Origin: Candidatus Syntrophosphaera sp.
GTDB taxonomy: Bacteria > Cloacimonadota > Cloacimonadia > Cloacimonadales > Cloacimonadaceae
Assembly: GCA_019429425.1 (NCBI GenBank)
Contig: JAHYIU010000001.1
Coordinates: 1 to 64,000, forward strand
DNA: 64,000 bases
Direction of reading: 5' to 3'
The notes under the pieces are model-generated. The model did no database searches. It was not told the DNA's origin and was given only the letters and a program-made list of their open reading frames with translations. Both the position numbers and the translations under genes were made by a program. Positions 9,124 through 51,689 of this stretch are shown here, in pieces (position 1 is the first letter of the stretch; every line of letters starts with the position of its first letter).

Positions 9124-9210
9124 CCCTCCCGATCACTACGCTATCATTACGGACTCACTACGGACTTTGTCCGTAATGAGTCCGTATTGACACCGTAATG
9201 ATAAGGGGGG
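9124..9210. repeat. Long palindrome A1 (family A, 11-bp units)
   Basis: This is one of three family-A palindromes. The centre is TTT (9166-9168). The right arm (9169-9210) reads as three 11-bp units and then TAAGGGGGG. The left arm matches its mirror at 34 of 42 positions, so it has decayed. Outside it, the gap 8914-9353 between two minus-strand genes shows nothing else I can support: no tRNA, and no terminator with a T tract. Confidence 0.85.
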
Positions 9211-9353
9211 CGACAGGGGTATGGCATGCTTAAGCTGCAGTCTGGAATAGCTTTGACACTATACTGTGAATTATATTTGCCCGAGCCAAAGCTAATGTTC
9301 TGCTTTTAAACTATCTATGGCCATAAATTGGCCAATCTGGGCCGGGTTGATAC

Positions 9354-10307
9354 TCAGACGTGGTTACGCAGGGCCAGCTCCATTGGATGGGGGTTCAGGT
9401 AGTATTGCTGGGCCAGATAGGGTTGGCCGTATTTGCGCACATAGTGGTTGATCAGGGTGACGGGCACGATCAGGGGCAGCAGGCCGGACCTGTAATTGCT
9501 TATCAGTTCGAGCATTTCGGCTTTCTCCGCCGGGGTCAGGTCCTCTTTGAAATAGCCAAGGATGTGCTGCATCACGTTCTGGTGCTTGGCCCGGGTGGCG
9601 TGGAATGAGGTGGCGCGCATCAGGTTTTCCAGATAGAGGCGGGCAAATTCCTCCGGGTCGTGCTGTTTGACGGATGCCACCAGTTTGCCCATTTCCCTGT
9701 AGAGCTGGGGGTTGTGGGCCATCAGCAGGAGTTTGTGGCGGGTGTGGAAATCGACCAGGCTGCCGGGGGTGAATTTGCTTTTGCGCAGCTTCAGCCAGCG
9801 CTGCATGATGAAGATGCGCTCGATGAAACTCTCGCGCAGCACGGGATCGTGCAGCCGGCCCTCCTCCTCCACGGGCAACAGGGGAAAGGCTTTCATGAAT
9901 TGGCGGGCAAAGATTCCCACGCCCTTTTTCTCGGCCGCTCCGCCTTTGGCTGGATAGACCTTGACCCGTTCCATGCCGCTGGAGGGGGATTTGCTCTTGA
10001 AGACGAAGCCGCAGAGTTCCTTTCCAGCCAGGTCCTGGAGCCTTTTAGCGCTCCAATCCAGCATTCGCTGGGTGTGGTCGATGCCGGTCTGAGTGGTCAG
10101 CAAGAGGGGATTGTCCGCGCTGCCAACCAGGCGCATGGCCTCGCGGGGGATGGGCAGGCCGCATTCGACCTCGGGGCAGACAGGAACGTAAGATACATAT
10201 TTGCCAAGGGTTTCCACCAGCCAGTTGTCATACTTGTGCTGCCCGTCGTAGCGCACCTTGTTGCCCAGCAAACAGGAACTGATGCCCAGGGTCAATACTT
10301 CTTCCAC
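9354..10307 (-). CDS. DUF523 and DUF1722 (YbgA-like) protein
   Basis: This 317-aa protein has two domains. Residues 1-150 are DUF523, with SSCLLGNKVRYDGQHK near 10-25, PVCPEVECGLPIPRE near 42-56 and CGFVFKSKSPSSGM near 99-112; its conserved cysteines suggest metal or cofactor binding. Residues 190-310 are DUF1722 (YbgA-like), rich in HxxL-type helices. The two-domain fusion occurs in many bacteria. Its function is not established, though YbgA-type genes are often near DNA photolyases. It stands alone between palindrome A1 and the CoA-transferase operon. Confidence 0.85.
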   Translation of the reverse strand: MEEVLTLGISSCLLGNKVRYDGQHKYDNWLVETLGKYVSYVPVCPEVECGLPIPREAMRLVGSADNPLLLTTQTGIDHTQRMLDWSAKRLQDLAGKELCGFVFKSKSPSSGMERVKVYPAKGGAAEKKGVGIFARQFMKAFPLLPVEEEGRLHDPVLRESFIERIFIMQRWLKLRKSKFTPGSLVDFHTRHKLLLMAHNPQLYREMGKLVASVKQHDPEEFARLYLENLMRATSFHATRAKHQNVMQHILGYFKEDLTPAEKAEMLELISNYRSGLLPLIVPVTLINHYVRKYGQPYLAQQYYLNPHPMELALRNHV

Positions 10308-10382
10308 TTCTCCTCCATATGGAATAGATAAGGCAGCCGCGAGTTCTGTATCGCGGCCGCCAGGGGTTAAATGTTTTGAGAA

Positions 10383-11030
10383 CTATTTCAGGTTGGCCGG
10401 GATGATCAGCTCGGCCTCGGTGGCTTTGAGCACGTCATCCACGGAAAAACCTTCGCTCACCTCTTTGAGGACCAGGCCCTCGGGAGTCACCTCCAGAACC
10501 GCCATTTCCGTCACGATCAGGTTGACCCGGCCTTTGGCGGTGAGGGGTAAAGTGCACTGTTTCAGGATCTTGGGATTGCCGTGCTTGTCGCAATGCTCCA
10601 TGGCCACGATCACTTGCTTGGCCCCAGTCACCAGGTCCATGGCGCCGCCCATGCCGGGAATGAGCTTGCCCGGGATCATCCAATTGGCGAGGTTTCCCTC
10701 TTGGTCGACCTGCAGGGCGCCCAGCACCGTCATGTCCAGATGCCCGCCGCGAATGATGCCGAAACTGGTGGCGGAATCAAAGAAAGAAGCTCCCGGCAGG
10801 GCTGTGATGAAACCCCCGCCGGCGTTGATCATGTCGGCGTCCTCAAATCCCGCTTCCGGAGCGGGTCCCACGCCCATGATGCCGTTCTCGGATTGGAAGA
10901 CGACATGCACTCCCGGGGGAATGTGGTTGGCCACTTCGGTGGGCAGTCCGATGCCCAGGTTCACGTAATCTCCGTCTTTCAGCTCGCGGGCGATGCGGGC
11001 TCCGATCTGTGCGCGTTTGTCCATGGCCAT
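10383..11030 (-). CDS. 3-oxoacid CoA-transferase, subunit B
   Basis: This 215-aa beta subunit of a family I CoA transferase carries the catalytic glutamate in SENG ([11 protein letters not shown] near 46-56). It also has [11 protein letters not shown] and the glycine-rich [12 protein letters not shown]. Family I enzymes move CoA between acids such as acetate, acetoacetate, butyrate or succinate through a glutamyl-CoA intermediate; the substrate here cannot be read from sequence. It starts 1 nt after subunit A, so the two are co-transcribed. A role in amino-acid or carboxylate fermentation is likely. Confidence 0.92.
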
Positions 11031-11031
11031 C

Positions 11032-11688
11032 TCAATTCTCCTTGCTCATGATGATGTAATTGACGAAGATGCCGGGAGTTACGATCTGCTCCGGATCAAG
11101 CTCGCCTGCTTCCACGATCTCGTCGACCTCGGCGATGGTGGTTCGGCCCGCCATGGCCATGATGGGATTGCTGTTGCGCGCGGTTTTGCGGTAGATCAGG
11201 TTTCCCGCCTTGTCGGCCTTCCAGGCGCGGATGATGGCAAAATCGCTGGGGATCGCGGGCTCCAGGATGTAGTCCTTGCCGTCAATGTTGATGATCTGCT
11301 TGCCTTCCTGCACAACGGTTCCCAGACCCGTGGGGGTGAGGATCCCGCCCAGTCCGGTCCCGTAGGCACGGCACCTTTCCATCAGGGTTCCCTGGGGTAT
11401 CAGCTCGACCTTGATCTCGCCGGAATTCATCTGGTTTTGGATCTCCCGGTTGGTGCCGGTGTGGGAAACCTGGGCGCTTTTCAATTGATGGTTCACCACC
11501 AGCTTGCCCACGCCGCGGTTTTCCCAGTCCGAGGCGATGACGATCATATGCAGGTCTTTGGTCCCGGCTGCCACGATGGCGTCAATGATGGTCTCCGGGG
11601 CCCCCACAGCCAGGAATCCTCCGATGGCGACGCGGCTGTGCGGTTCGATCATGGCGGCTGCTTCTTCCGCCGTTATCAGCTTGAACAT
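11032..11688 (-). CDS. 3-oxoacid CoA-transferase, subunit A
   Basis: This 218-aa alpha subunit pairs with the gene just downstream. The CoA-binding signature [18 protein letters not shown] is near residue 20, followed by [30 protein letters not shown], typical of AtoD/ScoA proteins. The start ATG at 11688 is preceded by AAGGAGAAGC, a good ribosome-binding site. It is the first gene of a two-gene operon. Separate alpha and beta chains are the bacterial norm, as opposed to the fused mitochondrial form. Confidence 0.92.
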
Positions 11689-11743
11689 TGCTTCTCCTTG
11701 GGGTGTGAATGATATTTGTGGGCAGGAAAAAACACCCGCCGCT

Positions 11744-13072
11744 TTATGTCAATAGATAGTCCTGGACGCGGTGGACATCCTCGCTGTTGAGCAGCACTTC
11801 CAGATAGATCCCGTCCGCGCGGTATTCCTCGGCCTGGATCACGGCTATCTCGTGCAGCAGCGAGGCCAGGGCGCCCTTGTCGTATGGCAAAAGCATCTTG
11901 CAGAGCTGGTTTTGGAACAGGCTGGCCTCTACGGTTTGCAGCAGGTCCTCGATGCGCTCCCTTTCCAGCGCGGAGATGGTGATCGCCTCAGGATGGCGCC
12001 TCTTAACAAGGGTGAGGTAGGTGCCCTCAACCAGATCAGTCTTGTTCAGGACCAGGACCTGCGGGATGGACGCGGCCCCGATCTCGGCCAGGACACAGTT
12101 CACCTGTTCCATGTAATAATCGTGCCGCTGGTCGGAAACATCCACGATATGCAGGAGCAGATCAGCGTCGTTGACCTCCATCAAAGTCGCGCTGAATGAG
12201 GCAACCAGGTGGTGGGGCAGGTTCGAGATGAAGCCCACCGTGTCTGAGATCACGACCGGAAATGAGACTGAGAGCTTGAGCTGCCTTGAGGTGGAGTCCA
12301 GAGTGGCGAAAAGGCGGTCCTCAACCAGCACGCCGGCCTCGGTGAGGGCGTTGAACAGAGTTGATTTGCCGGCATTGGTGTAGCCGACGAGGCAGATCTT
12401 CTTGGTTTTGCCGCGCTGCTTGCGCTGGGTTTCTTTCTGATGCTTGATGGTTTCGATGGCCTGGTTGATCTTGCGGATCTGCTGGCGGATCAGGCGTTTG
12501 TCGATCTCGATCTGCTTTTCGCCCATTCCTCGCGTGGCTGTGCCGCCGGCCGACCGTGCCGAGCCGCGTTCCTTGTCAAAATGGCCCCATAGCCTGCGCA
12601 GGCGGGGAAGCTGGTATTGCAATTCGGCCAAACGCACCTGCAGCTTGGCTTCGCGGGTTCGGGCATGGTCGTGGAAGATGGAGAGGATCACCTCGGTGCG
12701 GTCGATGACGCGGATGCTGTGGTCCTTTTCGATATTGCGGGCCTGGATCGGATTCAGTTCCTCGTTGACGATCAGGACGTCCGCCCCGGCCTGATGCATC
12801 TTGTAGCTTGTCTCTTCCAGGAAACCTTTGCCGAAAAAGCTGCCCCGCTCGGGGTGGTTGCGCCTCTGGGTGTAGCGGCCCAAAACCTCGATCCCGGCTG
12901 TGTCGGCCAGCCTTTCCAGTTCGTCCAGGGAATCGTTGACGTCAGTTTCGCTTTCGCCCTGGCGGATGATGGCCGCCAGAAAAGCCGTCTTGTCCTGCTT
13001 CTCCAGGTCTTCCCAGGACTCCTGCTCGAGGTCGTATTCCTCCACCAGATAGTCTTTTTCTTCGTCGCGCAT
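11744..13072 (-). CDS. hflX: GTPase HflX
   Basis: This ribosome-associated GTPase acts on 50S subunits and stalled or hibernating ribosomes under stress. The 442-aa length is normal. The N-terminal HflX domain includes the GTP-independent nucleotide-binding region and NPIQARNIE; a coiled-coil linker is seen near RQQIRKINQAIETIKHQ. The G domain has GYTNAGKSTLFNAL, DTVGFISNLPHHLVASF (the family's DTVGFI) and NKTDLV. A C-terminal extension of about 60 residues follows. It is separated from the CoA transferase by 55 nt and from the upstream secreted-protein gene by 22 nt. Confidence 0.95.
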   Translation of the reverse strand: MRDEEKDYLVEEYDLEQESWEDLEKQDKTAFLAAIIRQGESETDVNDSLDELERLADTAGIEVLGRYTQRRNHPERGSFFGKGFLEETSYKMHQAGADVLIVNEELNPIQARNIEKDHSIRVIDRTEVILSIFHDHARTREAKLQVRLAELQYQLPRLRRLWGHFDKERGSARSAGGTATRGMGEKQIEIDKRLIRQQIRKINQAIETIKHQKETQRKQRGKTKKICLVGYTNAGKSTLFNALTEAGVLVEDRLFATLDSTSRQLKLSVSFPVVISDTVGFISNLPHHLVASFSATLMEVNDADLLLHIVDVSDQRHDYYMEQVNCVLAEIGAASIPQVLVLNKTDLVEGTYLTLVKRRHPEAITISALERERIEDLLQTVEASLFQNQLCKMLLPYDKGALASLLHEIAVIQAEEYRADGIYLEVLLNSEDVHRVQDYLLT

Positions 13073-13094
13073 GTCTCTCCTGTAAAGGTTTTAC

Positions 13095-13943
13095 TCAGTT
13101 GCTGATCTTGGTGCCGCGGGCGTCCTTCCTGCCAGGCGAACTGTCGTAGATCTCCACATTGTAATAGATCACGGCGATACAGTCGCGGGGATATTCGCCG
13201 TGGAAAAAGCTGTGCATGAGGTTGACATACTGGACCACCTGGCGTTCGTAGGTGCTGAGCTTGGGATCCAGCGGATGCAGCAAACGCGCGATCTGCTTGA
13301 CCTTGAAGGTGGGGATGTCCATCCAGACCGTTACGCAGGCGGGATTCAGCATCTGGTTGATGAAGGTCTGGGTGTTGTAGCCCGGCTCAGAATAGAGTTC
13401 CAGAGAAACCAGCCGGTTCGGGCTGAAGTTCTTTTCCGCGTTGATATACAGGCTGTCCAGGATGTCCAGCTTGACGTCCAGGCCCTCTTCCATGTTGGCC
13501 CGCAGCAGCGCGATCAGTTCCGCGATTTTGTCCTCTGGCGGCAAAAAGCCCATGCCCTTGATGGCGTTGTTGAGCTTGAAGCGGGAGTCCTTGCGCGCGG
13601 CGCCGTAGGTGGCGACTATCCCGTTGTGCGGTCCGGCGAGTTGCGGGCTGCGCGTGGCTTCCCGGCCCTTGGTGAGCATCTCGCGGAAGATGTCCAGATA
13701 TTCCCTGCGCTGGTTTCTGTTCCAGTCCCAAAACGATTGGGGGAACTCCACCAATGGGAAATCCTGCCAATCACTGTCCACCTGGGCGCGGATGCTGGTT
13801 GCGCCGGCCTCCGGAGTGATGGCGGTTTTTTGCACGCTGTAGCCTTCCTGCCAGAATGTGGCGGGATCGATAACGTCTTCGGCGCGCAGAAGGCCGATTA
13901 CTATCAGCAAGCCGAAAACGCAAAGGATGAGTATCTTTTCCAT
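13095..13943 (-). CDS. Secreted protein of unknown function
   Basis: I do not recognise a family. The 282-aa product has an N-terminal signal peptide (about residues 1-21, ending LLRAED). A mixed globular domain follows with FWDWNRNQRREYLDIFREM near 91-109 and an Asp/Pro-rich tail. There are no cysteine motifs, lipobox or sorting domain except an isolated cysteine near 214. It sits 2 nt from the DUF3795 gene and just upstream of hflX, so it is probably in the same operon. It may be a periplasmic protein of this lineage. Confidence 0.6.
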   Translation of the reverse strand: MEKILILCVFGLLIVIGLLRAEDVIDPATFWQEGYSVQKTAITPEAGATSIRAQVDSDWQDFPLVEFPQSFWDWNRNQRREYLDIFREMLTKGREATRSPQLAGPHNGIVATYGAARKDSRFKLNNAIKGMGFLPPEDKIAELIALLRANMEEGLDVKLDILDSLYINAEKNFSPNRLVSLELYSEPGYNTQTFINQMLNPACVTVWMDIPTFKVKQIARLLHPLDPKLSTYERQVVQYVNLMHSFFHGEYPRDCIAVIYYNVEIYDSSPGRKDARGTKISN

Positions 13944-13945
13944 GT

Positions 13946-14281
13946 TTAACTCCTATGGGATTCGATGTTTTCCTTGGCCGCGGGAACCGCCTGGTAGAGA
14001 AATGCGTTGGTCTGGCAGGGGAAATCCCCGCATTCCGCGCAGCTTTGGAATCCTTTGCCCACCACGCAGGCGCGGATGGGGCAGTTGTTGCACCAGTTGA
14101 AATGAACGCCCTCGCTCATGCAGCCATCGCAATTGATTTCTGCAGCAGTTAGTTGGGTGTCGTAATTCTTGCTCCAGCGGATGGCGATATCCGCTTTCTT
14201 TTCCGTGTCTCCGGACTTGGTGGCCAGATAGCATTCGCAGGCCAGGCAATCAAGTCCGCAGGCCGAGCTTGGTTTAGTCAT
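13946..14281 (-). CDS. DUF3795-type cysteine-rich protein
   Basis: This 111-aa protein has about a dozen cysteines in the DUF3795 pattern: CGLDCLACECYLAT near 8-21, CDGCMSE near 51-57, CNNCPIRACV near 64-73 and CAECGDFPC near 81-89. The spacing suggests zinc or iron-sulfur binding; the function is unknown. Its start codon overlaps the end of trmFO by 8 nt, so translation is likely coupled, and the secreted unknown follows 2 nt later. Confidence 0.8.
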   Translation of the reverse strand: MTKPSSACGLDCLACECYLATKSGDTEKKADIAIRWSKNYDTQLTAAEINCDGCMSEGVHFNWCNNCPIRACVVGKGFQSCAECGDFPCQTNAFLYQAVPAAKENIESHRS

Positions 14282-15581
14282 CTTCTTCTCCCAGATATAT
14301 TTGCAGAGCCGCCAGGCTGCGCCGGGACAGGCTCAGTTTCTTTTCCTTCTTGTCCCTGATGGGGGTTTCCAACGCGGGAAGCAAGCCGAAATTGGCGTTC
14401 AGGGGCTGAAAACCTTTGGTGGCCTGATCGATCAAACGCCGCCAGAGCTGGCCCAGAATCGTTTCCGGCGGCAGCATACCGATCCCTTCGGCCAGGATCT
14501 TGGCTACCAAAAGCCCGGTGGCGACGCATTCCATATAGCCCTCCACCCCGCTCAGTTGCCCGGCCACAAAGACGTTGCGGGCGTTTTTCAAAGTCAGGTT
14601 GGGATACAGGACCTGCGGCGCATTCAGATAGCTGTTGCGGTGGATGGAGCCGTAGCGCAGGAATTCCGCCTGTTCCAAGCCGGGGATCATCCTCAGGATC
14701 CTTTTTTGCTCCGGATAGCGTAGCATGGTCTGGCAACCGACCAGATTGTAGGCGGTTTGGTCCTTGTTTTCCGTCCTGAGTTGCAGCACCGCGAAGGGTT
14801 TCTTGCCATCCTTTTCCAAGCCCATGGGACGCATAACCCCGTGCGCCAGAGTGTCTTTGCCCCGCCGGGCCAGTTCCTCGATGGGGGTGCAGTTCTCGTA
14901 GTAAGAAAACTCCAGTTCCCGGAAAAACTCATTCTCAAACTCCCGCGCCTGGTGCTTTTCGCCGGCCAGTAGGGCATCCACGAAGGCGTAGTACACGTCC
15001 CGGGTGAAAGGGCAGTTCAGATAATCCGCGTCGCCCTTGTCATAGCGGTCTTTGCGGTATATTTTGCTGAGGTCCAGGCTGTCCGCGGACACGATGGGTG
15101 CAATGGCGTCGAAGAAATAGAGCTGTTCAGAGCCCAGAAGCCTTTGCAGTTCACGCATCAGGTCATCGGAGGTGAGCGGTCCGGTGCAGAGTATGCAGGC
15201 CCCTTCGGGAAATTTGGATACTTCTTCCCGGATGAGTTCGATCCGGGGGTGCTGTTCTATACGATCGCTAACTGTTTGGGCAAACAGCTCCCGATCCACG
15301 GCCAAAGCGTGACCCGCCGGCACGGAGCAGCTTTCGGCGATAGGGAGGAGCTTCGATCCCAGCAGGCGAACCTCTTCCTTCAGCAAGCCGGACGCGGTAT
15401 CCAGGAGAGTGGATTTGAGGGAATTGCTACACACCAGTTCCGCCGCCAGGCCTGTCTGATGGGCGGGGGTCATTTTGTCCGGCCGCATCTCGTAGAGCCG
15501 GACCGGAAGGCCCAAGTCTGCCAGATACAGCGCGGCCTCGCTGCCAGCCAGGCCGGCCCCGATGATGTTTATCGCCGCCAA
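14274..15581 (-). CDS. trmFO: Methylenetetrahydrofolate-tRNA-(uracil-5-)-methyltransferase TrmFO
   Basis: TrmFO makes 5-methyluridine 54 in the tRNA T-loop, using methylene-THF and FADH2. The 435-aa length is normal. The FAD-binding N-terminus IIGAGLAGSEAALYLA is followed by YEMRP, the family motif CSNSLKS near 51-57, and a C-terminal VAGQLSGVEGYMECVATGLL. The start overlaps the flippase-like gene by 13 nt. Together with mnmE the window encodes two folate/FAD-linked tRNA uridine modification enzymes. Confidence 0.95.
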   Translation of the reverse strand: MAAINIIGAGLAGSEAALYLADLGLPVRLYEMRPDKMTPAHQTGLAAELVCSNSLKSTLLDTASGLLKEEVRLLGSKLLPIAESCSVPAGHALAVDRELFAQTVSDRIEQHPRIELIREEVSKFPEGACILCTGPLTSDDLMRELQRLLGSEQLYFFDAIAPIVSADSLDLSKIYRKDRYDKGDADYLNCPFTRDVYYAFVDALLAGEKHQAREFENEFFRELEFSYYENCTPIEELARRGKDTLAHGVMRPMGLEKDGKKPFAVLQLRTENKDQTAYNLVGCQTMLRYPEQKRILRMIPGLEQAEFLRYGSIHRNSYLNAPQVLYPNLTLKNARNVFVAGQLSGVEGYMECVATGLLVAKILAEGIGMLPPETILGQLWRRLIDQATKGFQPLNANFGLLPALETPIRDKKEKKLSLSRRSLAALQIYLGEEDD

Positions 15582-16462
15582 TGCAGGTGTCCCGGAAGCT
15601 TTTTCAAAGTGAAGAAAATCAGCGCGCCCACCAGTCCGGATAGTACCTCATGGATGATGAAGACCATCAGGGTGCTGCCCACAATCTGTTCCTGGGCGAG
15701 GCCGATCTCGGACAGGAAATGGATGGCGAAAATTTCCTTGAATCCCAGCCCGGCATAGGTGATCGGGATGCTGTGGGAGATGTTGGACAGGCTCATCCGC
15801 GTCAGCACTTCGGCAAAATTGACGGGCTGGGTCCGCATCAGGATCAGCCAGTACTGCAGATAATTGAGCAGCGTGGTCAGGATCAGGAGTCCAACAATGC
15901 GCGGGGCGGGGCGCAGAGAGGCTTTGCGGAGGTCCTTCCAGTGCTTGTTCAGGGCCAGCAGGAAATAGCCCCAGATGGGAAAAGTCGCCAGCCCGATCAG
16001 CAGCGCCAATCTGAGCCCGAGAGGTATGCCAATGGGGAGGAAGATCAAGGACAGAGCGGCAAAAAGCAGCAGTGCCCAGGTCACCAGGGTGCGCTCATAG
16101 AGAAAGGCATAAGCTGAATCCCGCACACTGCTGTTGTCTATAAAGGCTGTTTTACCCACCAAGCCCAAACCTCCGGGCAGGGCGAAACGCAGCGCCTGGC
16201 CGATCAGATATGATCTGCCAACCTCAGGCCAGTTCGGTCGGTAGAGGGGATTGATCTGCAGCGACCAGCCCCACACCAGGGCAAGCCCCAAATGACGAAA
16301 CAAAGACAGACTTAGCAGGGACAGCAGCAGCCAGGGGGGCAGATTGAACATGCTGGCAAAGACCATCGCCATGTCGATCTTGCGGAAAATGCTCCACAGG
16401 ATCAGTACGGTTATCCCCATCTTGAGGGCAAAGATCAGGATGTTGCTTACTTTCTTATTCAA
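15569..16462 (-). CDS. Lysylphosphatidylglycerol synthase TM-like (UPF0104) membrane protein
   Basis: This polytopic protein has about eight membrane segments, of the AglD/MprF flippase-domain superfamily. Typical features are FALPGGLGLVGKTAFI and the C-terminal SISHSIPITYAGLGFKEIFAI followed by EVLSGLVGALIF. I place the start at TTG 16462, 6 nt after AGAGGG and just past the malic-enzyme stop. It gives MNKKVSNILIF, while the longer ATG frame from 16552 would overlap malic enzyme by 80 nt. The substrate is unknown; relatives act on lipid-linked or aminoacylated lipids. Confidence 0.75.
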   Translation of the reverse strand: MNKKVSNILIFALKMGITVLILWSIFRKIDMAMVFASMFNLPPWLLLSLLSLSLFRHLGLALVWGWSLQINPLYRPNWPEVGRSYLIGQALRFALPGGLGLVGKTAFIDNSSVRDSAYAFLYERTLVTWALLLFAALSLIFLPIGIPLGLRLALLIGLATFPIWGYFLLALNKHWKDLRKASLRPAPRIVGLLILTTLLNYLQYWLILMRTQPVNFAEVLTRMSLSNISHSIPITYAGLGFKEIFAIHFLSEIGLAQEQIVGSTLMVFIIHEVLSGLVGALIFFTLKKLPGHLHWRR

Positions 16463-16472
16463 AAAACGCCCT

Positions 16473-17933: not shown

Positions 17934-18190
17934 TTAATAATCCTGTTCTTTTTTGGAAAAACCAGTTTTGTAATAGGGTGATTGTTGTCAATCTACTTTA
18001 CGCGAGGTGGGGCAAATTTAGGATGGACTGGGCTTACAGGTATTCTTAAAATCATTCTTATCAGTACCTTAAGAGCCAATTGCGTGTTTTTCCCTTCCTG
18101 TCCCAAGCGCCCTTCGCCTCCTCATACGATGCACTATTATATTCATTTGATCACAGATAACTATATTTTCGCCATGCATTTATCCCTTGC

Positions 18191-18279
18191 CCTCTCTTGA
18201 TCAATACGGTGTCAATACGGACTCATTACGGACAAAGTCCGTAATGAGTCCGTATTGACACCGTATTGATAAGGGGGGC
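18191..18279. repeat. Long palindrome A2 (family A, 11-bp units)
   Basis: Arms 18201-18233 and 18237-18269 are perfect 33-bp inverted repeats around AAA (18234-18236). Each arm is three 11-bp units: TCAATACGGTG, TCAATACGGAC, TCATTACGGAC. The right side continues TAAGGGGGG; the left flank is a degraded mirror of it. It lies between divergent genes (malic enzyme minus, glycosyltransferase plus), so it is not a terminator of either. The remainder of 17934-18490 shows no gene I can support. TTGACA occurs at 18439-18444 without a convincing -10. Confidence 0.92.
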
Positions 18280-18490
18280 CATGGCATAAAGTTCTGTGGA
18301 TCTGCGGCAGGCAAAACGTCCGGAAGCCTTGATCCAAGAGGCCTAACGCCGTGTTCATCCCGATCAGGAAAGAAGGGTGTCAGTAGGAAAATCCGGTGCC
18401 AGGCTCTCCCCCGGTTGAGATCAGAGGCGAAAAAAGTCTTGACAGCAAAGCATTTGCAACAAACAAGCGTTTGGAGAGAAGGACTTGAAA

Positions 18491-19621: not shown

Positions 19622-19625
19622 TAAG

Positions 19626-20882: not shown

Positions 20883-20901
20883 AGCTTTTCTGAATAAAGG
20901 T

Positions 20902-22029: not shown

Positions 22030-22032
22030 TTT

Positions 22033-22746: not shown

Positions 22747-22750
22747 TGTC

Positions 22751-28360: not shown

Positions 28361-28480
28361 CCCCATCCCGCCCTCCCTTGACGGTGTTAATCACTTGTCT
28401 ATCCACTGTCTATCACTTGTCTATAATAGACAAGTGATAGACAGTGGATAGACAAGTGATAGGCAGGGTGAAAAGAGGGC
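28361..28480. repeat. Long palindrome B1 (family B, 11-bp units)
   Basis: Arms 28390-28424 and 28426-28460 are perfect 35-bp inverted repeats around one A. Read as 11-bp units, each arm is TCACTTGTCTA, TCCACTGTCTA, TCACTTGTCTA around TAA. The flanks are conserved and inverted relative to copy B2. The left flank (28361-28390) matches the reverse complement of B2's right flank at 27 of 30 bases, and the right flank (28461-28480) matches B2's left at 18 of 20. It lies between divergent genes (peptidase minus, PtsN-CBS plus). The rest of 28206-28553 shows no gene. Confidence 0.92.
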
Positions 28481-28553
28481 GGAACAAAATCATTGACCGG
28501 ATAACGCGGGCGGAAATAATGCCATCGTTAAAGAATTTGAGCGAGGTAAACAG

Positions 28554-37720: not shown

Positions 37721-37840
37721 ACCCTCTTGTCACCCTGCCTATCACTTGTCTATCCACAGTCAATCACTTGTCTATAATAGACAAGTGATTGACTGTGGAT
37801 AGACAAGTGATTAACGCCGTCAAGGGAGGGCGGAATGGGA
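37721..37840. repeat. Long palindrome B2 (family B, 11-bp units)
   Basis: Arms 37741-37775 and 37777-37811 are perfect 35-bp inverted repeats around one A. The 11-bp units are TCACTTGTCTA, TCCACAGTCAA, TCACTTGTCTA around TAA. Compared with B1 two bases differ in the middle unit and both are mirrored in the opposite arm. It lies between convergent genes (Xer recombinase plus, serpin minus). No T tract follows the stem. Confidence 0.92.
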
Positions 37841-42105: not shown

Positions 42106-42196
42106 AAATTACATCCATGTATATACAGGATAAGGCAAAAGCCTGCACTGGCAATAGCTTTGGGTGCCTGTTCGGGAGAGGTGGAAACGTTCAAGC

Positions 42197-42898
42197 TTAA
42201 AACTTCACTTCCCCAGGGCCTTCGATCCGCTTGATCTCGCCGCCGGCATTGATATCGCGGCAGGGACCGGGTTCGATCTCAGCGCTGTCCGTGTAGCCGC
42301 GAACTTCCCAATAACCGGAAACGTATAGCTCCATTAGTTCGATCTTGACGACCGATTTGGCGGATTTATAGCCCCAGAGATAAGGAATGAAGGCACGCAC
42401 GGGGCCGCCGTAATCCTCGTCCAGGAATTCGCCGTCAAAGCTGTGCGCCAGCAGGGATTTTTCCAGCAAGGCTATTTCCACCGGGATGGAGGTGTCGTAG
42501 ACCAGGCCCACGGACCAGAACCGTATGTATTTGCAACTGGGCAACATACCAACTTCCCGAAGGAGGGCGGAAAGGGAGACGCCTTTCCACAGGCCTTGCA
42601 CAGACCAGCGGGTCACGGAGGTCAGACGGCTGTCGACCTCGGCCTGCGGCAATGCTATAAGTTCTTTCCAGGTCAAGGTTTGCGGATGTTCGCAGGCGCC
42701 CGTGACCTCGATCTTCCAGTTTTCCCGATCAAGTTTCCCGGGATGTCCCTCCGCCCAAAAGATGGGCGTGTTCATGGCAGCGAGCTTGCTCACTTTGTCT
42801 CCTTTTTCTTCTTGTGATTTGGGTGAATCGGCCTGGCCCGTGCAGGCTTGGAACAGGACCAGCAGGACCAGCAGGATGAATATCCTTCCCGACATCAA
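42197..42898 (-). CDS. Lipoprotein with molybdopterin oxidoreductase domain lacking the Mo-ligand cysteine
   Basis: This 233-aa protein has a signal peptide ending FQAC (Cys19), a likely lipid anchor. The rest is a sulfite-oxidase/YedY-type Moco domain (WKIEVTG, LTWKELIALP, RWSVQGLWKGVSLSALL, GGPVRAFIPYLWGYKSAKSV). The position normally occupied by the molybdenum-coordinating cysteine (CVTRWS in relatives) is Ser94 (SVTRWS). It may have lost catalysis or bind a different ligand. It overlaps nnr as ATGA. A maturation gene for molybdopterin was not seen nearby. Confidence 0.8.
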   Translation of the reverse strand: MMSGRIFILLVLLVLFQACTGQADSPKSQEEKGDKVSKLAAMNTPIFWAEGHPGKLDRENWKIEVTGACEHPQTLTWKELIALPQAEVDSRLTSVTRWSVQGLWKGVSLSALLREVGMLPSCKYIRFWSVGLVYDTSIPVEIALLEKSLLAHSFDGEFLDEDYGGPVRAFIPYLWGYKSAKSVVKIELMELYVSGYWEVRGYTDSAEIEPGPCRDINAGGEIKRIEGPGEVKF

Positions 42899-44424: not shown

Positions 44425-44433
44425 TGTTTCCTC

Positions 44434-45981
44434 CTATTTGGCGTGGTCGGTATGGAGTTTTATCTCGAAGGTGGTGCCTTCGTTGATCGTGCTGGCCAGG
44501 ACACGGATATGGCCATGGTGGTATTCTTCGATGATGCGTTTGGCCAGACTGAGCCCGAGTCCCCAGCCCCGGGTCTTGGTGGTGACCCCGGGATCGAAGA
44601 TCTTTTTCCAGCGGGAATGAGGAATGCCCTTACCCTCGTCGCGGATGTGCAGAAAGACGTGTTTAGCGTTGTGGGTGGCGGTTATCACTATGTTCCCTCC
44701 CTTGCCGGACATGGCGTCAACGCAGTTCTTGATCAGGTTTTCCAGCGTCCATTTGAAGAGTTCCGCGTCCAGCATGACCATGATACCTTCGATCTTGGAG
44801 ATCAGATGGATCTCGATGCGGGAGCTCAGATGCGGCATGCGGTCGTGGAAATAGGACACTGTTTCTTCCAGGATCCTGTGCAGTTCGAGGGGTTTGAGCT
44901 TGGTCTGCGAGCCAACTTTGCCGAAGCGCGAGGAGATTATCTTGAGTTGCTCCAGGTCGGTGGTCATGTAGTCGAGGATCTTGTTCATATCCGGACGGCA
45001 TGAGCCTTCCGGCGGAGTTTCCCGCAGCAGGTCGAGCCAGCCCATCATGGATGTGATCGGAGTGCCGAATTGATGCGCGGTTTCCTTGGCAAGACCGATC
45101 CAGAGGGTGTCCTTTTCCGTACGGTGCAAAAGCAAGAGGCCATAGCTGCTGAAGCCGATCAAAAGAATTGCCAGTGCCAGTTCCAGGATCACGAAATAGC
45201 GGATGCGGGAAAGGGATTTGGGCGCGCTGAAGTAGATGTAGCCAAGGTTGTCGGCCTCATTGCCGAGCGGCATTTCATCCATTCCCAGGATCCTTTCCCG
45301 CAGGACAGCGCGCTCCTCGGAGCTGATCTGAGCCCAGGTCTCAGCTTCAGGAATGCCCACATTGCGCCAGTAGAGCGGAGTTTTATGTCTGTCGGTAACC
45401 ACCAGGGAATAGTCGATCTGCTTGATGAATTCCTGCAGAGAGGTGGGGCGGGCGTAATAGACAAAGTTGGTGATCTCATCTTCGTAGCTTATCTCGGTGC
45501 AGTTCATCAAAGGCAGGAAGGCCTTCAATTTCCGCTGGGATTCCTCGCAGAGGTCGACGAAGCTGCTATCCGGGGAGACCCCAACCTGGTTCCAGAACAG
45601 CGGTTCGAGATTGGCGTCCGTGATGATGATGGGGATGGGGTTGTTGGGCATGAACTCGAAAAGGATGTAGGAACTGATCGCCTCCTCGTAATTGGGCTGC
45701 TGGGCGGATTCAAAGTGCTTGGAGCTCAATTCGCCGAGGGTTTGGGCGTATTTTTCGGACTGACGCAGATAGGCATCCGTGTAGGCAATGTATTTGGCAA
45801 AGATGCGGGGCACGTGTTCCTGCTCGCGTTTGGCGTTTTGGATCAGGATCTGGGTGTAGACGGCAAAGGCGGCAAAGATCAGCACACTGCTGAAGATCAG
45901 GTAGAGGCGCAGGGATTTGAAATAGTCAGTCTTTTTTCGCGAGATCCCAGACGGCGTCAAGTTCTTCGAGGCTTGCTTCAT
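44434..45981 (-). CDS. Sensor histidine kinase, orphan
   Basis: This is a 515-aa protein starting at ATG 45981 with ACGGAG upstream. The frame extends to 46161, but that part overlaps mazG and reads like non-coding shadow sequence. Membrane helices lie at about 24-44 and 262-285 and enclose a sensor domain of about 215 residues. The HisKA motif ETAHQFGTPIT places the phosphorylated H at 303. The HATPase domain follows, with ENLIKNCVDA, RDEGKGIPHSRW and GWGLGLSLAKRIIEEY. It overlaps the mazG end by 56 nt. No response regulator gene lies beside it, so its target is unknown. Confidence 0.87.
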   Translation of the reverse strand: MKQASKNLTPSGISRKKTDYFKSLRLYLIFSSVLIFAAFAVYTQILIQNAKREQEHVPRIFAKYIAYTDAYLRQSEKYAQTLGELSSKHFESAQQPNYEEAISSYILFEFMPNNPIPIIITDANLEPLFWNQVGVSPDSSFVDLCEESQRKLKAFLPLMNCTEISYEDEITNFVYYARPTSLQEFIKQIDYSLVVTDRHKTPLYWRNVGIPEAETWAQISSEERAVLRERILGMDEMPLGNEADNLGYIYFSAPKSLSRIRYFVILELALAILLIGFSSYGLLLLHRTEKDTLWIGLAKETAHQFGTPITSMMGWLDLLRETPPEGSCRPDMNKILDYMTTDLEQLKIISSRFGKVGSQTKLKPLELHRILEETVSYFHDRMPHLSSRIEIHLISKIEGIMVMLDAELFKWTLENLIKNCVDAMSGKGGNIVITATHNAKHVFLHIRDEGKGIPHSRWKKIFDPGVTTKTRGWGLGLSLAKRIIEEYHHGHIRVLASTINEGTTFEIKLHTDHAK

Positions 45982-46693
45982 GGATGTCGGCTCCGTTTTT
46001 GCGGTAGTGTTCTTCGATGTAGTTGAATCTTTTATGGAATTTGCGGGCTGTTTCCTTGAGCGCGCTTTCCGCGTCGATATGGAGTTTGCGGGCCAGGTTG
46101 ACAATAGTGAATAGCAGGTCTCCCAGTTCCTCGCGGATCTGCAGAATGTCCTCGGAGTCAAGGGCTTCGCGCAATTCAGCCTCTTCTTCGTTCAGCTTGG
46201 CCAGGATGGGTGTGATGTTGGGCCAATCAAAACCTACCGAGGCGGCCTTTTCCTGGGTCCGCTGAGCGTAGATCAGGGCCGGCAGGGAGCGCGGAATACC
46301 CTCCAAAACGCTTTGGCGCTTGGTCTTTTCCTGTTTCTTGAGGCGTTCCCAGTTCAGCTTCACCGCGTCAGCGTCCGCAACATCCAGATCTCCAAAGACA
46401 TGCGGATGCCGGCGGACGAGTTTCTGGGCAATGCCGCGGAGGACGTCGGCGATGTCGAAACGGCCTTCCTCAGAGGCGATCTGGGCTTGGAAGACCACAT
46501 GCAGCATGAGGTCCCCCAGTTCCTCCATCAAAGCAGCGCCATCCCCGTCCTCGATCGCTTCCACGGCTTCGTGCAGCTCTTCGATGAAGTTCGGCACCAG
46601 GCTTTGGGAGGTTTGTTTCACATCCCAAGGGCAGCCGGAAACGGGATCGCGCAGTTGCGCTATTATATCCACGAGTTTTTGAAACTCTGTCAT
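45926..46693 (-). CDS. mazG: Nucleoside triphosphate pyrophosphohydrolase MazG
   Basis: This 255-aa protein has two MazG domains. The first (1-110) carries CPWDVKQTSQSLVPNFIEELHEAVEAI with the EExxE metal site, EELGDLMLHVVF and RHPHVFGD. The second starts near 165 (LNEEEAELREAL) and has EELGDLLFTIVNLAR. It hydrolyses (d)NTPs to the monophosphate and PPi, cleansing the pool or lowering (p)ppGpp. It overlaps the O-antigen ligase gene by ATGA upstream and the histidine kinase gene downstream by 56 nt. Confidence 0.95.
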   Translation of the reverse strand: MTEFQKLVDIIAQLRDPVSGCPWDVKQTSQSLVPNFIEELHEAVEAIEDGDGAALMEELGDLMLHVVFQAQIASEEGRFDIADVLRGIAQKLVRRHPHVFGDLDVADADAVKLNWERLKKQEKTKRQSVLEGIPRSLPALIYAQRTQEKAASVGFDWPNITPILAKLNEEEAELREALDSEDILQIREELGDLLFTIVNLARKLHIDAESALKETARKFHKRFNYIEEHYRKNGADIHEASLEELDAVWDLAKKD

Positions 46694-47979
46694 TGTTCCT
46701 CAATTTGTGGTTCATTTTTGGAGAGGGCGTAGGCAAAGCCCAAAGTACTCCAGAAAACCAGGCTGACGTGGTATTGCTGGATGAAGATGTCCGTGAGGCA
46801 GGCCACGAGCAGGGCGGCCAGGCCGATCAGGACAACGCGGTGGAAATTGTCCTCAGAGCGCTTTACCAGCCTGAGATAATAGCGCCTCAGCACCGCGGCG
46901 ATCAAATAGAAATACGCCAGGAAGCCAAAGACGCCGATTTCCAGCCAGATCTTGAGGAAGATATTGTGGGAATGCTCGGCGTAGAGGATATCCATTGGCG
47001 CTGCGCCCGCGTACCAATCTTTCCAAACACTGATGCCGATCCCGAACCAGGGATGGAGCATAATCTGCTGGATGGAAAAATACCAGGCCACCAGGCGGAT
47101 GATTATCGAATAGTCAAAAGTGAAGCCCAATTGAATGCGGCTGATCATGGAAGAGGGAATCAGCAAAGGTAAAAGCAGCAAGGTCCCCATCCCCACATAG
47201 CGCATCCGTTTCATCCTCAGCATCAGCAGGAAAAAGCCGACCGCAACGCCCACCAAGACAATCCGCGTGTAGGTGTAGAGCATTCCCATCAGGATCAGAA
47301 AGGCAAAGGCGTACCAGAGATGCCGGCTTCCGGAGCCTCTGGAATCGACCCCCAGGGCGATGGCGAAAAAGAAGGCCAGCAAGTAAAAACCATTAATATT
47401 CATGGCGGTTATCCACAGCGAACCGTATCGCTCAGCCGGATTGAGGAGGGCCATGACGATCCCGATGACCGCCAGCACCACTCCCACGTAGACAATGAAC
47501 TTGAGCCAAGCGGTAAAATCCGCTCTGCTGATCCGGCTGTTGGCAGCCAGGAGCATAAAGATCCCCGGCACGATCGCGGTGGAGAGGAAATAGAGGTAGG
47601 AATCGCCGAAGCTGCGGGCTCGCATGAACCCGTAAACAGCTACCGCAAAGAGAATTATCAGGGCCGCTGGATGGGGCAACAACAGGCTGCGCCTTTTTTC
47701 CTGTTGAAACTCGAGCAGGAGGCTGAGAGGCAGGATGAACAGCACGCTGATAAAACTCTGGGGATAGGGCTTGAGAAAGAACAAAGCGCTGAACAGCAGG
47801 CTGTTACGCACACTGAAGCCAAACAGCAGCCCGGTGAGCAGCCAGCCCGCAAGGATGAGGCCCACAAAGCCGACCTGATGGGCTTCCACGGACTGCATCG
47901 CCGCCGCCGCGGCCACAATCCCGGCTGTGAGCCCGGCACAGGCAAAGATCAGGGGCAGGCGTTTGAGGATCATGGCCAA
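46690..47979 (-). CDS. O-antigen ligase family (Wzy/WaaL-like) membrane protein
   Basis: This 429-aa protein has about 11 or 12 membrane helices and a periplasmic loop near residues 300-345 (GIGISVWKDWYAG, AEHSHNIFLKIWLEIGVFGFLAYF), with the EHSHN region typical of the PF04932 family. It joins or polymerises lipid-linked polysaccharide. The chain-length protein gene is immediately upstream (7 nt) and mazG overlaps downstream. Whether it is polymerase or ligase cannot be told from sequence. Confidence 0.85.
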   Translation of the reverse strand: MAMILKRLPLIFACAGLTAGIVAAAAAMQSVEAHQVGFVGLILAGWLLTGLLFGFSVRNSLLFSALFFLKPYPQSFISVLFILPLSLLLEFQQEKRRSLLLPHPAALIILFAVAVYGFMRARSFGDSYLYFLSTAIVPGIFMLLAANSRISRADFTAWLKFIVYVGVVLAVIGIVMALLNPAERYGSLWITAMNINGFYLLAFFFAIALGVDSRGSGSRHLWYAFAFLILMGMLYTYTRIVLVGVAVGFFLLMLRMKRMRYVGMGTLLLLPLLIPSSMISRIQLGFTFDYSIIIRLVAWYFSIQQIMLHPWFGIGISVWKDWYAGAAPMDILYAEHSHNIFLKIWLEIGVFGFLAYFYLIAAVLRRYYLRLVKRSEDNFHRVVLIGLAALLVACLTDIFIQQYHVSLVFWSTLGFAYALSKNEPQIEEQ

Positions 47980-47986
47980 AGCCTTG

Positions 47987-49150
47987 TCAGAGCGACTTTT
48001 TGATCTCCTGCAGGCGGTCTTTGTTGTTTTGGAGAAGATTGATGATCAGGACGATGACCACGGCCAGCAGGCAGGCCAGCAGGAAGGCGATGATGCAGAT
48101 CACGGCACGTTTGGGCCGCGCCCGCAATCCCGCTTCGCGCGGGGTATCCAGGATCTCCAGAGAGGGCATGTCGCGCAGTTCTTCCAGCCGCGCGGCCTCA
48201 AACTGGGGATAGAGGAATTCGAAGACCTTGGACTGGATCTGAAGGTTTAGCTGGAGTTGAGCGAACTGGGAAGCAAGATCTGGCAGGGTGGAAAGATTGA
48301 TCTGGTAGCGCGGTTTAAGCTCACTACTGCCGGCCTCGAGGTCACGGATCTGCTGTGAAAGCGCCTCGCCGCGCTTCCTCAGTTCCGCATAGACGGGGGA
48401 ATTCTCGGAATAGTTGCTGCGCGCCAGCTCGAGTTCGACGTCGTTTTGCATCCTGGCAGCCACCACTGCGGCGTATGATTCGATCATGGCCTTGGTCTGG
48501 ACCTCCAGGTCAACGGAGTTGTGTTTGGTTTGGAAATCGCGCACTTCCAGGAGCAGGGAATCGATCAGGGCGCGGGTGTCGCCTACCCGTTGCTCCAGGA
48601 ACTCGCGGTTCATCTTGCCGCGCGTGACCTTCTGCTCGCGGTTGTAGACATCCAGCCGCTCCAGATAGTAATCCACCATATCCCTGCTGAGCTTTTTGCT
48701 TTTGGTCTGCACGCGGACGCCCACCAGGCCGGTCTCTGTGCTGTAGCCGATGTTGAGAGTCTTTTCGCGCAGGCGTTTCAGGGCCATGTCCATCGCCTTG
48801 AGAGTATCCGCTTCGGTGATCTGGTAATAGTCGATCAGCTTGAAACGGCGGATCACATCCTCAGAAAAGACGCGTGAAGTCATTGCTGATACCGAATTAA
48901 TGGCATTCTGGGAGCCTTCTGATCCCAGCAACTGTGACGTCAGGCCGCCCAGGCCGGCGATGTCGAAAGGCAGGCTGCTGCTTTGGTCGCCCACCACATA
49001 GAAAGTGGCCCGCGATTCCCAGATCTGGGGCGTGAGCAGGCTGTAGACCACCGCGGCGACACTCACCACGGCCACAAATATGATCACGAACCTGCGATGC
49101 TTCAGGATTAACCTGACCAGTTCAAAGATGTCGAACTCTCTTTTATCCAT
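47987..49150 (-). CDS. Wzz/GumC-like polysaccharide co-polymerase (chain-length determinant)
   Basis: This 387-aa protein has two membrane helices, at about residues 23-40 and 350-372, flanking a long periplasmic domain rich in alpha-helical coiled coil (residues 150-300). The Wzz domain N-terminus includes FDIFELVRLILKHRR. LEILDTPREAGLRARPKRA before the second helix is the Pro-rich motif of chain-length determinants. No tyrosine kinase domain is attached, so it is the short form. It precedes the O-antigen ligase gene. Confidence 0.88.
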   Translation of the reverse strand: MDKREFDIFELVRLILKHRRFVIIFVAVVSVAAVVYSLLTPQIWESRATFYVVGDQSSSLPFDIAGLGGLTSQLLGSEGSQNAINSVSAMTSRVFSEDVIRRFKLIDYYQITEADTLKAMDMALKRLREKTLNIGYSTETGLVGVRVQTKSKKLSRDMVDYYLERLDVYNREQKVTRGKMNREFLEQRVGDTRALIDSLLLEVRDFQTKHNSVDLEVQTKAMIESYAAVVAARMQNDVELELARSNYSENSPVYAELRKRGEALSQQIRDLEAGSSELKPRYQINLSTLPDLASQFAQLQLNLQIQSKVFEFLYPQFEAARLEELRDMPSLEILDTPREAGLRARPKRAVICIIAFLLACLLAVVIVLIINLLQNNKDRLQEIKKSL

Positions 49151-49279
49151 TGCGACCTATCCTTGTAATCTTTTCTTGTTTCGCCGTCCGGAGACCGCAT
49201 GAGCTTTCTAAGGTGAATATTCCTTATTTGCCCAGTCCATATTATTGTCAATGAATAGTTTTGCCCTGCGCTGAGGAAG

Positions 49280-50530
49280 TCATCCCAGGTAGGGGGCCAG
49301 AACTTGCGGTAGGTCCAGGCCGCCCCCGCTGTTCTGATATGTCTCCAGCAGCGCGATCATCAGGCGCGGCGTGGCCACTCCCGATCCGTTCAAAGTATGC
49401 AGGAATCCCACCTTGCCGCTCGCGTCGCGATAGCGGATATGGGCGCGGCGGGCCTGGAAATCCTCAAAATTACTCACGGATGAGACCTCCAGATATTTCT
49501 GCGAGCCGGGCGCCCAGACTTCGATATCGTAGGTCTTGGCCGAGGCGAAACTCAGGTCGCCGCTGCAGAGCTGGACCACGCGGTAATGCAGGCCCAGGGC
49601 TTGCAACACCTCCTCCGCGTCCAGCAGCATTTCTTCCAGCGCGGAATAGGATGTTTCCGGCTCCACGAAGCGCACCATTTCCACCTTGTTGAATTGGTGC
49701 AAGCGCTGCAGGCCTTTGGTGTCCTTGCCGTAGGAACCGGCCTCGCGGCGGAAGCAGGGCGTGTAAGCCACATATTTCAGAGGCAGTTGTGAATGCTGAA
49801 GCACCTCTCCCCCATAGATGTTGGTCACCGGGACCTCGGCTGTGGGGATCAGAAACAGGTCGTCCTCGTCCACGTGGTACATGTCGGCTTCCAGCTTGGG
49901 CAGTTGGCCCGTGCCGGTCATGGTTTTTCTGGTCACCAGAAGCGGGACGGCCAGTTCGGTGTAGCCGTGCTTTGCGACATGCAGGTCCAGCATGTAATTG
50001 ATCAGGGCCCGTTCCAGCCTGGCCCCGAAACCAGTGTAGATGGGGAATCCGGAGCCGCTTATCCTGGCCCCGCGCATCAAATCGAGCAGTCCGTTCCGGT
50101 CCGCGACACCCAGGTGGTCCAAAGGCTCGAAAGCAAAGCCGGGCTTGCTTCCCCAGCTCTTTATCTCCAGATTGCTGCTTTCGTTGCTGCCGATCGGCAC
50201 GCTGGGGTGGGGGATGTTCGGAATGGTTAGCAACAGCGCGTCCAGGGCTGAATTGGCCTCGCTCAGGGAGGCGTTCACGGCTTTGATCCGGTCTGCCACG
50301 ATGCTCATTTCCTGCACAAGCCCGGAGGCATCCTCACCCGCTTTCTTCTTTTGGGCGATGGTCTGGGAAACCTGGTTCTGGCTGGCTTTCAGGTTGTCAA
50401 ATTCGAATTGGAGCCTGCGGCGATTCTCGTCCACAGCCAGCAGGGCGTCCAGATCGGCCTTTTCGTTCTTGTTGCGTATCGCGGTCCGCACGGCTTCGAT
50501 GTTCGCGCGTATATATTTGATATCCAGCAC
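49280..50530 (-). CDS. serS: Seryl-tRNA synthetase
   Basis: This 416-aa class II synthetase charges tRNA-Ser. The N-terminal antiparallel coiled coil covers about 1-105. The catalytic core has TAEVPVTNIY (motif 1 region), PCFRREAGSYGKDTKGLQRLHQF (motif 2) near 250-272 and NGSGVATPRLMIALLE (motif 3) near 380-395. All motifs are complete. It starts 1 nt from the tpiA stop, so the two are co-transcribed. Confidence 0.97.
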   Translation of the reverse strand: MLDIKYIRANIEAVRTAIRNKNEKADLDALLAVDENRRRLQFEFDNLKASQNQVSQTIAQKKKAGEDASGLVQEMSIVADRIKAVNASLSEANSALDALLLTIPNIPHPSVPIGSNESSNLEIKSWGSKPGFAFEPLDHLGVADRNGLLDLMRGARISGSGFPIYTGFGARLERALINYMLDLHVAKHGYTELAVPLLVTRKTMTGTGQLPKLEADMYHVDEDDLFLIPTAEVPVTNIYGGEVLQHSQLPLKYVAYTPCFRREAGSYGKDTKGLQRLHQFNKVEMVRFVEPETSYSALEEMLLDAEEVLQALGLHYRVVQLCSGDLSFASAKTYDIEVWAPGSQKYLEVSSVSNFEDFQARRAHIRYRDASGKVGFLHTLNGSGVATPRLMIALLETYQNSGGGLDLPQVLAPYLG

Positions 50531-50531
50531 C

Positions 50532-51317
50532 TTAGGCTCCCCTAATCTTGATCACCTGGGAGGCGGTGTCGATCATGGCGCAAAAATCCTCCAGGATCAG
50601 AGAAGCCCCGCCGATCAAGCCGCCGTCAATGTCCGGCTGCAGCAGCAGTTCGCGGATGTTGCCGGGTTTCACGCTGCCGCCATAGAGGATGTGGATATTG
50701 GCGGCGATGGCTTGCCCGAATTGCTTGTCCAGCCATTCGCGGATGAGCGCGTGCACTTCCTGGGCCTGGTCCGATGTGGCGGTTTTGCCTGTGCCGATGG
50801 CCCACACGGGCTCATAGGCGATCACGACCTCACGGCCGGAAGACAGCTCCACTTCCTCGAAACAGCCGGCAAGCTGCGTCAGGATCACTTTCTCGGTTTG
50901 TCCGGCCTCTCTCTGAGCCAGGGTTTCGCCGATGCAGACGATCGGAATCAGGTCGTTTTCCCGCAACCGGAACAGCTTTTCCCGGATCAGGGCGTCAGAT
51001 TCCCCGTGGTACTGGCGCCGTTCGGAATGGCCGATGATGCAATAGGAAAGCCCCAGGGAGTTCAACTGCACGGCCGAGACCTCACCCGTGTAAGCTCCTG
51101 CGGTTTCGGCGCTTACATCCTGCGCCGCCACTGCCGCCGGAATTCCCTGCAGCAAAGACTGGGCCTTGGCCAGAAAAGGAAAAACGGGGGCGATGATGGG
51201 CACAACCCTTTCCTCATCGTGATCCTTGAGATAGTCTCCCAAATCGAGGCAGAACTGTTCTGTCTCGAAGGCGTCCTTGTTCATCTTCCAATTGCCTGCT
51301 ATGATGATATTGCGCAT
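50532..51317 (-). CDS. tpiA: Triosephosphate isomerase
   Basis: This 261-aa glycolytic isomerase interconverts DHAP and glyceraldehyde 3-phosphate. It has the N-terminal NWKMN (Lys), GHSERRQ with catalytic His near 99, AYEPVWAIGTGKTAT with catalytic Glu near 169, and ILYGGSVKPGN. The start ATG 51317 follows AGGTGG by 6 nt; a GTG three codons earlier is less likely. It is the first gene of the serS operon. Divergent palindrome A3 lies 280 nt upstream. Confidence 0.96.
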   Translation of the reverse strand: MRNIIIAGNWKMNKDAFETEQFCLDLGDYLKDHDEERVVPIIAPVFPFLAKAQSLLQGIPAAVAAQDVSAETAGAYTGEVSAVQLNSLGLSYCIIGHSERRQYHGESDALIREKLFRLRENDLIPIVCIGETLAQREAGQTEKVILTQLAGCFEEVELSSGREVVIAYEPVWAIGTGKTATSDQAQEVHALIREWLDKQFGQAIAANIHILYGGSVKPGNIRELLLQPDIDGGLIGGASLILEDFCAMIDTASQVIKIRGA

Positions 51318-51600
51318 GTATTCCACCTGTTGATCTTAGTTTGAAAAAGTACCTAATCCTGAAAAGTGCCGATTCGTCAAGGAAATTGTCAAAACCGCGC
51401 GGAACAGCCGACCCCGCCTCAAGAAAGGCCGTATTAGCCGCCGAGGATTATCGCGGTGCCAAGAGTGGCAAAGAGTTGTTGTTTTGAATCCCAATACTGA
51501 GCGGTCCTACAATGGGTCCATACCTTGTTGACGTACTTTCGGCCCCGGGGCAGTTCCCATTGACCATTTCGGGACAATCCAACTCCTCTTTTTTGCTTTG

Positions 51601-51689
51601 GCCCCCCTTATCATTACGGTGTTAATACGGACTCATTACGGACTTTGTCCGTAATGAGTCCGTATTAACACCGTAATGATAAGGGGGGC
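51601..51689. repeat. Long palindrome A3 (family A, perfect 43-bp arms)
   Basis: The arms 51601-51643 and 51647-51689 are perfect 43-bp inverted repeats around TTT (51644-51646). The outer 10 bp is GCCCCCCTTA; then come TCATTACGGTG, TTAATACGGAC, TCATTACGGAC. It is the best-preserved copy of family A. It sits between divergent tpiA and the carboxyltransferase gene. The rest of 51318-52130 contains no supportable gene; the small reading frames found there look non-coding. Confidence 0.95.

Follow-up and report, generated by a model that had tools for sequence, protein, structure and literature searches.

The palindromes of families A and B in the window (the whole 64,000-nucleotide stretch of DNA analyzed here) are probably promoter-less copies, scattered through the genome, of the palindromes that two paralogous genes have at their promoters. 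The products of these genes we predict to bind the palindromes unit by unit, to regulate their own genes, and to act at the dispersed copies. In each family one copy lies directly upstream of its own gene, with TTGACA in its outermost unit; gene type and array type co-occur over genomes; and arrays evolve in concert with their own promoter copy. The genes belong to a family of uncharacterised ~147-aa proteins of the order Cloacimonadales, which we name MKVK. Judged from sequence, the palindromes point to an undescribed pairing, between a probable DNA-binding protein and scattered sites that co-evolve with its promoter.

All five palindromes reported for the window in the initial annotation are present at their positions, and gene calls bear out the contexts it gave (three divergent, one convergent, one co-directional). 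The three family A copies, to which no strand is assigned, are A1 (9124..9210; symmetric core 9132-9202, TTT centre, decayed left arm), A2 (18191..18279; core 18200-18270, arms of 34 bp around the 3-nt centre AAA) and A3 (51601..51689; TTT centre), whose perfect arms of 43 bp each consist of three 11-bp units GTCCGTANTGA plus TTATC/GATAA and a C/G-run end. No perfect arm in the window is longer than these 43 bp; 20 simulated windows from a first-order Markov model reach 7-10 bp. Family B is represented by B1 (28361..28484, + strand; core 28390-28460), with its units in the order GACAAGTGATA / GACAGTGGATA / GACAAGTGATA, and by B2 (37721..37840, - strand; core 37741-37811), reversed relative to B1; both have 35-bp perfect arms and a single central base or, in an alternative reading, 3x11 bp around TAA. 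The plan of three 11-bp units per arm about a 3-nt centre, proposed for both families, is seen in A2 and A3 and can be read into B1 and B2, while A1 shows the same plan with the left arm decayed, as had been said. The 11-bp period is also borne out: at offset 11 the mean self-match reaches 0.74 for A and 0.66 for B, vs. 0.14-0.39 at the remaining offsets from 5 to 17. Two claims stand in part: units 1 and 3 are alike and unit 2 different in B but not in A, whose three units (GTCCGTANTGA) match, the outermost slightly off; and the families, described as having no obvious shared sequence, do have CGCCCTCC-like outer ends and 11-bp units in common.

The genome, a member of Candidatus Cloacimonadota (2.38 Mb in 134 contigs, of which 1.77 Mb, or 74%, was read for A copies), holds many further palindromes of both kinds: 57 copies of family A in the part read, about eight more on other contigs, and about 21 copies of family B. 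The outcome that the initial annotation named as refuting, an absence of other such palindromes, did not occur. A scan of the 1.77 Mb for tandem periods gave 54 period-11 regions, every one of them family A, vs. 0-4 regions each for periods 10 and 12-30, 31 for period 8 and 10 for period 9. All A and B copies are intergenic by our own gene calls. Family A occurs in both orientations and is not end-symmetric, carrying TGGCTCCCC on one side and TCGCCCTCC on the other; a target-site duplication longer than one ambiguous base was not found for it, and that one base reflects the two unlike ends, present in both orientations. Gaps between convergent genes are enriched for A (19/50, Fisher P = 3e–4). 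The smallest distance between its copies is 4.9 kb (0.9 kb for the null median, 0/500), and their spacing is somewhat regular (CV 0.62 vs. 0.82, P = 0.04), both values coming from 25 spacings in a fragmented genome. Across the 57 copies, variation in the inner two units of each arm is almost confined to the N of ANTGA (GTCCGTANTGA), more variation is seen in the outer unit and at the ends, and the left and right arms vary independently; this pattern is in better accord with separate recognition of each unit than with selection on a hairpin. Selection for hairpin pairing in A was rejected as a candidate, mirror-pair matching being equal to or below the expectation from column frequencies, and the cruciform role offered by the initial annotation finds no support in this family, given that its two arms vary independently. 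As a separate observation on family B, about 10 of the 22 B loci, some of which overlap, have an IS-like end (TGACCCGTCCTGAAATAGGTTGACC) at their base, often with a contig break (L027, L030, L033, L035, L039, L045, L048 and others), and the IS seems to target this family.

The gene was reached by searching relatives of A and B in 50 Cloacimonadaceae genomes and inspecting the genes that flank the matches. A small gene lies directly behind a B-type array in this genome (G000; C43:877-1317) and in G025, and the same small-gene family sits behind arrays with another unit in G047. The C43 gene (+ strand) and C33:9308-9754 (- strand), both outside the window, are MKVK paralogs. MKVK genes occur in 50/50 Cloacimonadaceae genomes, at 1-26 each and up to 28 by profile search; a profile search of the phylum found the family in 61 of 125 genomes, within one order only, and a scan with a 16-sequence alignment returned 25 loci, nearly all in Cloacimonadota/Cloacimonetes records. 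Searches of Pfam, NCBIfam, PHROG and PDB sequences with MKVK proteins gave no match, nor did a search for phage or plasmid origin, and nothing relevant turned up in the literature on such repeats or on this family in Cloacimonadota. The proteins are basic (median pI 9.5, with +7 in the N-terminal 45 residues). The C43 and C33 types were modelled with AlphaFold at a mean pLDDT of 89.9 and 81.7, respectively, and both models have the same topology of three strands followed by five helices; a Foldseek search with the C43-type model returned nothing significant and no match to a known DNA-binding fold, and in the protein we recognised neither a catalytic motif nor a nuclease or transposase fold.

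The array lies 81 bp upstream of the C33 gene (family A) and 51 bp upstream of the C43 gene (family B). The -35-like TTGACA is found in one of 57 A copies, namely that of C33, and in one of 13 B copies, namely that of C43, so the dispersed copies are promoter-less; B1 has a right end that matches the side of the C43 promoter palindrome facing the gene, except that TTGACA is absent. The core ortholog has in most genomes an array ~45-150 bp upstream, built as a three-unit palindrome around a TTAATAATTAA-like centre and with TTGACA in the final unit, spaced mostly 89-92 bp from array centre to ATG and 51-54 bp from -35 to ATG; the G010 array, for example, reads TCAATCACTTC-TTAATCCCCTC-TTAATCAAGCG-TTAATAATTAA-CGCTTGATTAA-GAGGGGATTAA-GAAGTGATTGACA. 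In this genome the core-ortholog promoter palindrome takes the form of family B, and that of the second paralog, C33:9308-9754, takes the form of family A. Near the best gene per genome we counted 22 period-11 stretches and 0-3 for other periods, and over the whole set a period-11 stretch lay upstream of 40.5% of 126 MKVK members vs. 5.4% of 425 control upstreams. The units upstream of MKVK genes are paralog-specific, with many unrelated sequences; ~60% of the genes have no upstream array at the threshold used, and MRAYFKNM-type paralogs have none. A comparison of 17 genomes showed that unit 2 of the promoter array changes jointly in both arms (0/2000 shuffles). The suggestion that the two families have a shared builder or binder, not one ancestral repeat, is well supported in the form of two paralogs, each with its promoter palindrome.

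Presence of gene and array was compared over draft genomes, one per species, from which the contexts and positions were also taken, with core-gene and C33-type genes called at E-value gaps that were set after the lists had been inspected (E <= 1e-42 for the C33, or A-type, gene). A-type arrays occur in 14 genomes, the C33-type gene in 16 and both in 13 (Fisher P = 2e–8), and the core gene is associated with B-type arrays (P = 1.6e–4) despite nine exceptions; these values overstate the evidence, because close relatives are not independent, and part of the co-occurrence and similarity reflects common ancestry. In nine of these genomes the C33-type gene has an upstream array bearing that genome's own unit. 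Three genomes (G001, G005 and G048) have the A-type gene with no A-type arrays found, and some A-type genes in G001, G025, G046 and G048 have no upstream array. Dispersed arrays best match the promoter array of their own genome in 71 of 74 cases (55/56 in G000 and 16/18 in other genomes, where both exceptions are from G023, in which one operator arm is mostly gone).

Core-type (B-like) arrays are dispersed in 28 genomes, and the nine exceptions are those among them without an intact core gene. One of the nine, G004, has gene remnants adjoining its arrays: in two diverged copies (L459, L463) the same internal deletion has fused the array to the 3' end of the core gene, keeping its last ~47 codons and common downstream sequence. 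The array+gene cassette is duplicated in G044 and G047, and it occupies different loci in different genera, with neighbours that are not conserved between genera. G044 has about 14 near-identical array+gene copies, mostly 3'-truncated, of which those at contig ends (L289-L297, L298-L311) comprise the array and the 5' part of the gene with varied cut points; several G044 copies were also seen to run into the same TTGAGAAGG-rich sequence. Array locations are mostly unlike between species; six shared ones, picked by hand from tblastn output, compare with a rough expectation of ~1, distances differ in most of them, and just one (G000:C43/G025:C9) is clearly the same ancestral array. The exceptions, duplications and remnants fit a system that has been gained, duplicated and lost, but would be compatible with a purely selfish element as well.

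The proposal that the palindromes are mobilised by a REP-type transposase did not hold up, and we consider it most improbable that A and B are REP elements moved by Y1 (RAYT/IS200-like) enzymes. In favor of Y1, one of the three Y1 genes in this genome, on C18, has an A copy about 20 bp past its stop codon, and several genomes have arrays close to Y1 genes. Yet these genes carry repeats of their own or another palindrome family: the C18 gene has tandem GTCCCNNNGGGACGGCAT REPs upstream, as do its relatives in G024 and G026, and these short REPs stay with one Y1 subgroup through three species (L054 1900-2180, L196 1060-1420, L198 80-340) while the arrays near the same genes differ, being of A, A and B type. 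A third palindrome family, CCCCACCCC..AAACACAGAT.. (L055 1140-1190, 2140-2200), lies on either side of the C93 gene, and G031 and G044 have arrays without any Y1 gene. Y1 genes with their own repeats and arrays without Y1 both disfavour Y1, which we rejected as the mobiliser, and the genome is its own positive control for RAYT pairing. The call for a protein whose presence tracks the repeats was answered by the A-type MKVK gene, present in 13 of the 14 genomes with A-type arrays, and not by Y1. Other repeats were observed alongside: the third family also occurs elsewhere in this genome, its C93 case resembling a classical REPIN-RAYT pair; two more palindrome families, CCCCACCCC..CATTGGCGGGACG and CCCCACCCC..TCCGCGGCTC, lie on C5, C17, C27, C45 and C46 and on C3, C39, C44 and C11; and in G005 a Y1 gene is preceded by 11-bp units (GCAAGGATTGA) that are direct and not palindromic, about 21 in number (L197 1057-1296). 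Hairpins acting in RNA, as terminators or RNase III substrates, we judge very unlikely as well: the long perfect stems and the enrichment of A between convergent genes would suit them, but the A arms vary independently with no compensatory change, the window has no Rfam match, a T-run is lacking, and the overlap with a -35-like box is conserved at gene promoters.

A selfish pair in the manner of REPIN-RAYT, in which non-autonomous mobile palindromes are copied with the MKVK protein, in place of a Y1 transposase, as enzyme or essential factor, and which was founded by the gene together with the palindrome at its promoter, is a serious possibility, if not one that we would expect to hold. It is favored by the many copies in both orientations with defined ends and strictly intergenic placement, by array locations that mostly differ between species, by a cassette at unlike loci in unlike genera, by the near-identical, mostly truncated G044 copies and the G004 derivative with its internal deletion, present twice, and by the mutual tracking of gene and arrays; against this, the protein has no recognised catalytic motif, nuclease fold or transposase fold, target duplication is at most one ambiguous base, six array locations are common to more than one species, and the truncated G044 copies could be decay. 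Somewhat more doubtful is a role in chromosome organisation, with MKVK proteins as autoregulated nucleoid-associated proteins and the arrays as selected putative binding sites, like matS for MatP. The spacing of at least 4.9 kb and its partial regularity, the placement between convergent genes (P = 3e–4), the almost invariant inner units of 57 copies and the loss of the promoter from dispersed copies would all agree with such a role, although the spacings number only 25 in a fragmented genome, copy number ranges from few to >40 among close relatives, and several sister species have neither array type.

Under our preferred reading, in which A and B are dispersed copies of MKVK promoter palindromes, the MKVK protein would be a basic, sequence-specific DNA binder that places one protomer on each 11-bp unit, and we propose that bound protomers would then align on one helix face along both arms. 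Binding at its own gene would occlude the -35 element and so repress the promoter (autoregulation), while the dispersed promoter-less copies, which in family A favor convergent-gene gaps, may be occupied as nucleoprotein sites. Like REPINs and their RAYT, the copies and the operator change together, though the protein is an unrelated one. Binding sites for a multimeric protein, one of the options in the initial annotation, are therefore favored, as putative sites.

The nearest known parallel is REPIN-RAYT, in which dispersed extragenic palindromes go with a cognate gene that has a palindrome beside it (Nunvar 2010, PMC2817692; Bertels and Rainey 2011, PMC3116915). The A and B palindromes share with it their dispersed extragenic location, one cognate gene with an adjacent cognate palindrome, several gene-palindrome pairs per genome, concerted evolution, and gene presence that tracks palindrome abundance (13/14 for the A-type, P = 2e–8; P = 1.6e–4 with 9 exceptions for the core gene and B-type, both values inflated by relatedness as above). 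They differ in that MKVK is not a Y1/HUH transposase and has no Pfam or fold relation to one, that the array is only upstream of the MKVK gene, over a -35-like box, whereas the RAYT gene is flanked on both sides, that the palindrome arms are tandem 11-bp units, and that the family has 1 to 28 genes per genome. In plasmid partition by ParR/parC, 11-bp iterons are bound by ParR, a ribbon-helix-helix protein that is autorepressed and has an actin-like partner, ParM. Here too 11-bp tandem units, one helical turn apart, lie at the promoter of the presumed binder, but the MKVK protein is not recognised as ribbon-helix-helix (three strands then helices, no PDB match) and its units form inverted arrays with many dispersed chromosomal copies. 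MITEs, ERIC, NEMIS and foldback elements are likewise intergenic palindromes in tens of copies, the foldback arms having tandem repeats, and MITEs have terminal repeats in common with an autonomous transposon as well as target-site duplications; A and B, at roughly 90-120 bp and also in tens of intergenic copies, differ in having no parent transposase found and no target duplication seen beyond one ambiguous base, and in their relation to a promoter palindrome. MatP/matS and similar nucleoid proteins combine dispersed sequence-specific sites with one dedicated protein, as A and B putatively do, but the site here is a 70-120 bp multi-unit palindrome that changes from species to species, and there are several MKVK paralogs whose inferred specificities differ. 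That these features amount to a new class of system, with lineage-specific multi-copy binder genes, private 11-bp codes, operators copied by their own product and rewritten in concert, several gene-palindrome systems per genome and no known transposase, is a tentative idea that we think rather unlikely.

In bacteria, dispersed palindromes that have a cognate gene were so far tied to a single class of enzymes, the Y1 transposases. The MKVK proteins follow the same logic, but they are unrelated to Y1, are without a known fold relative, and occur in all 50 genomes examined. Several gene-array pairs per genome with unlike 11-bp units, in versions of each species' own, provide a natural series from which a protein-DNA code could be derived by comparison, and the system makes the reason why bacterial genomes retain such palindromes directly testable.
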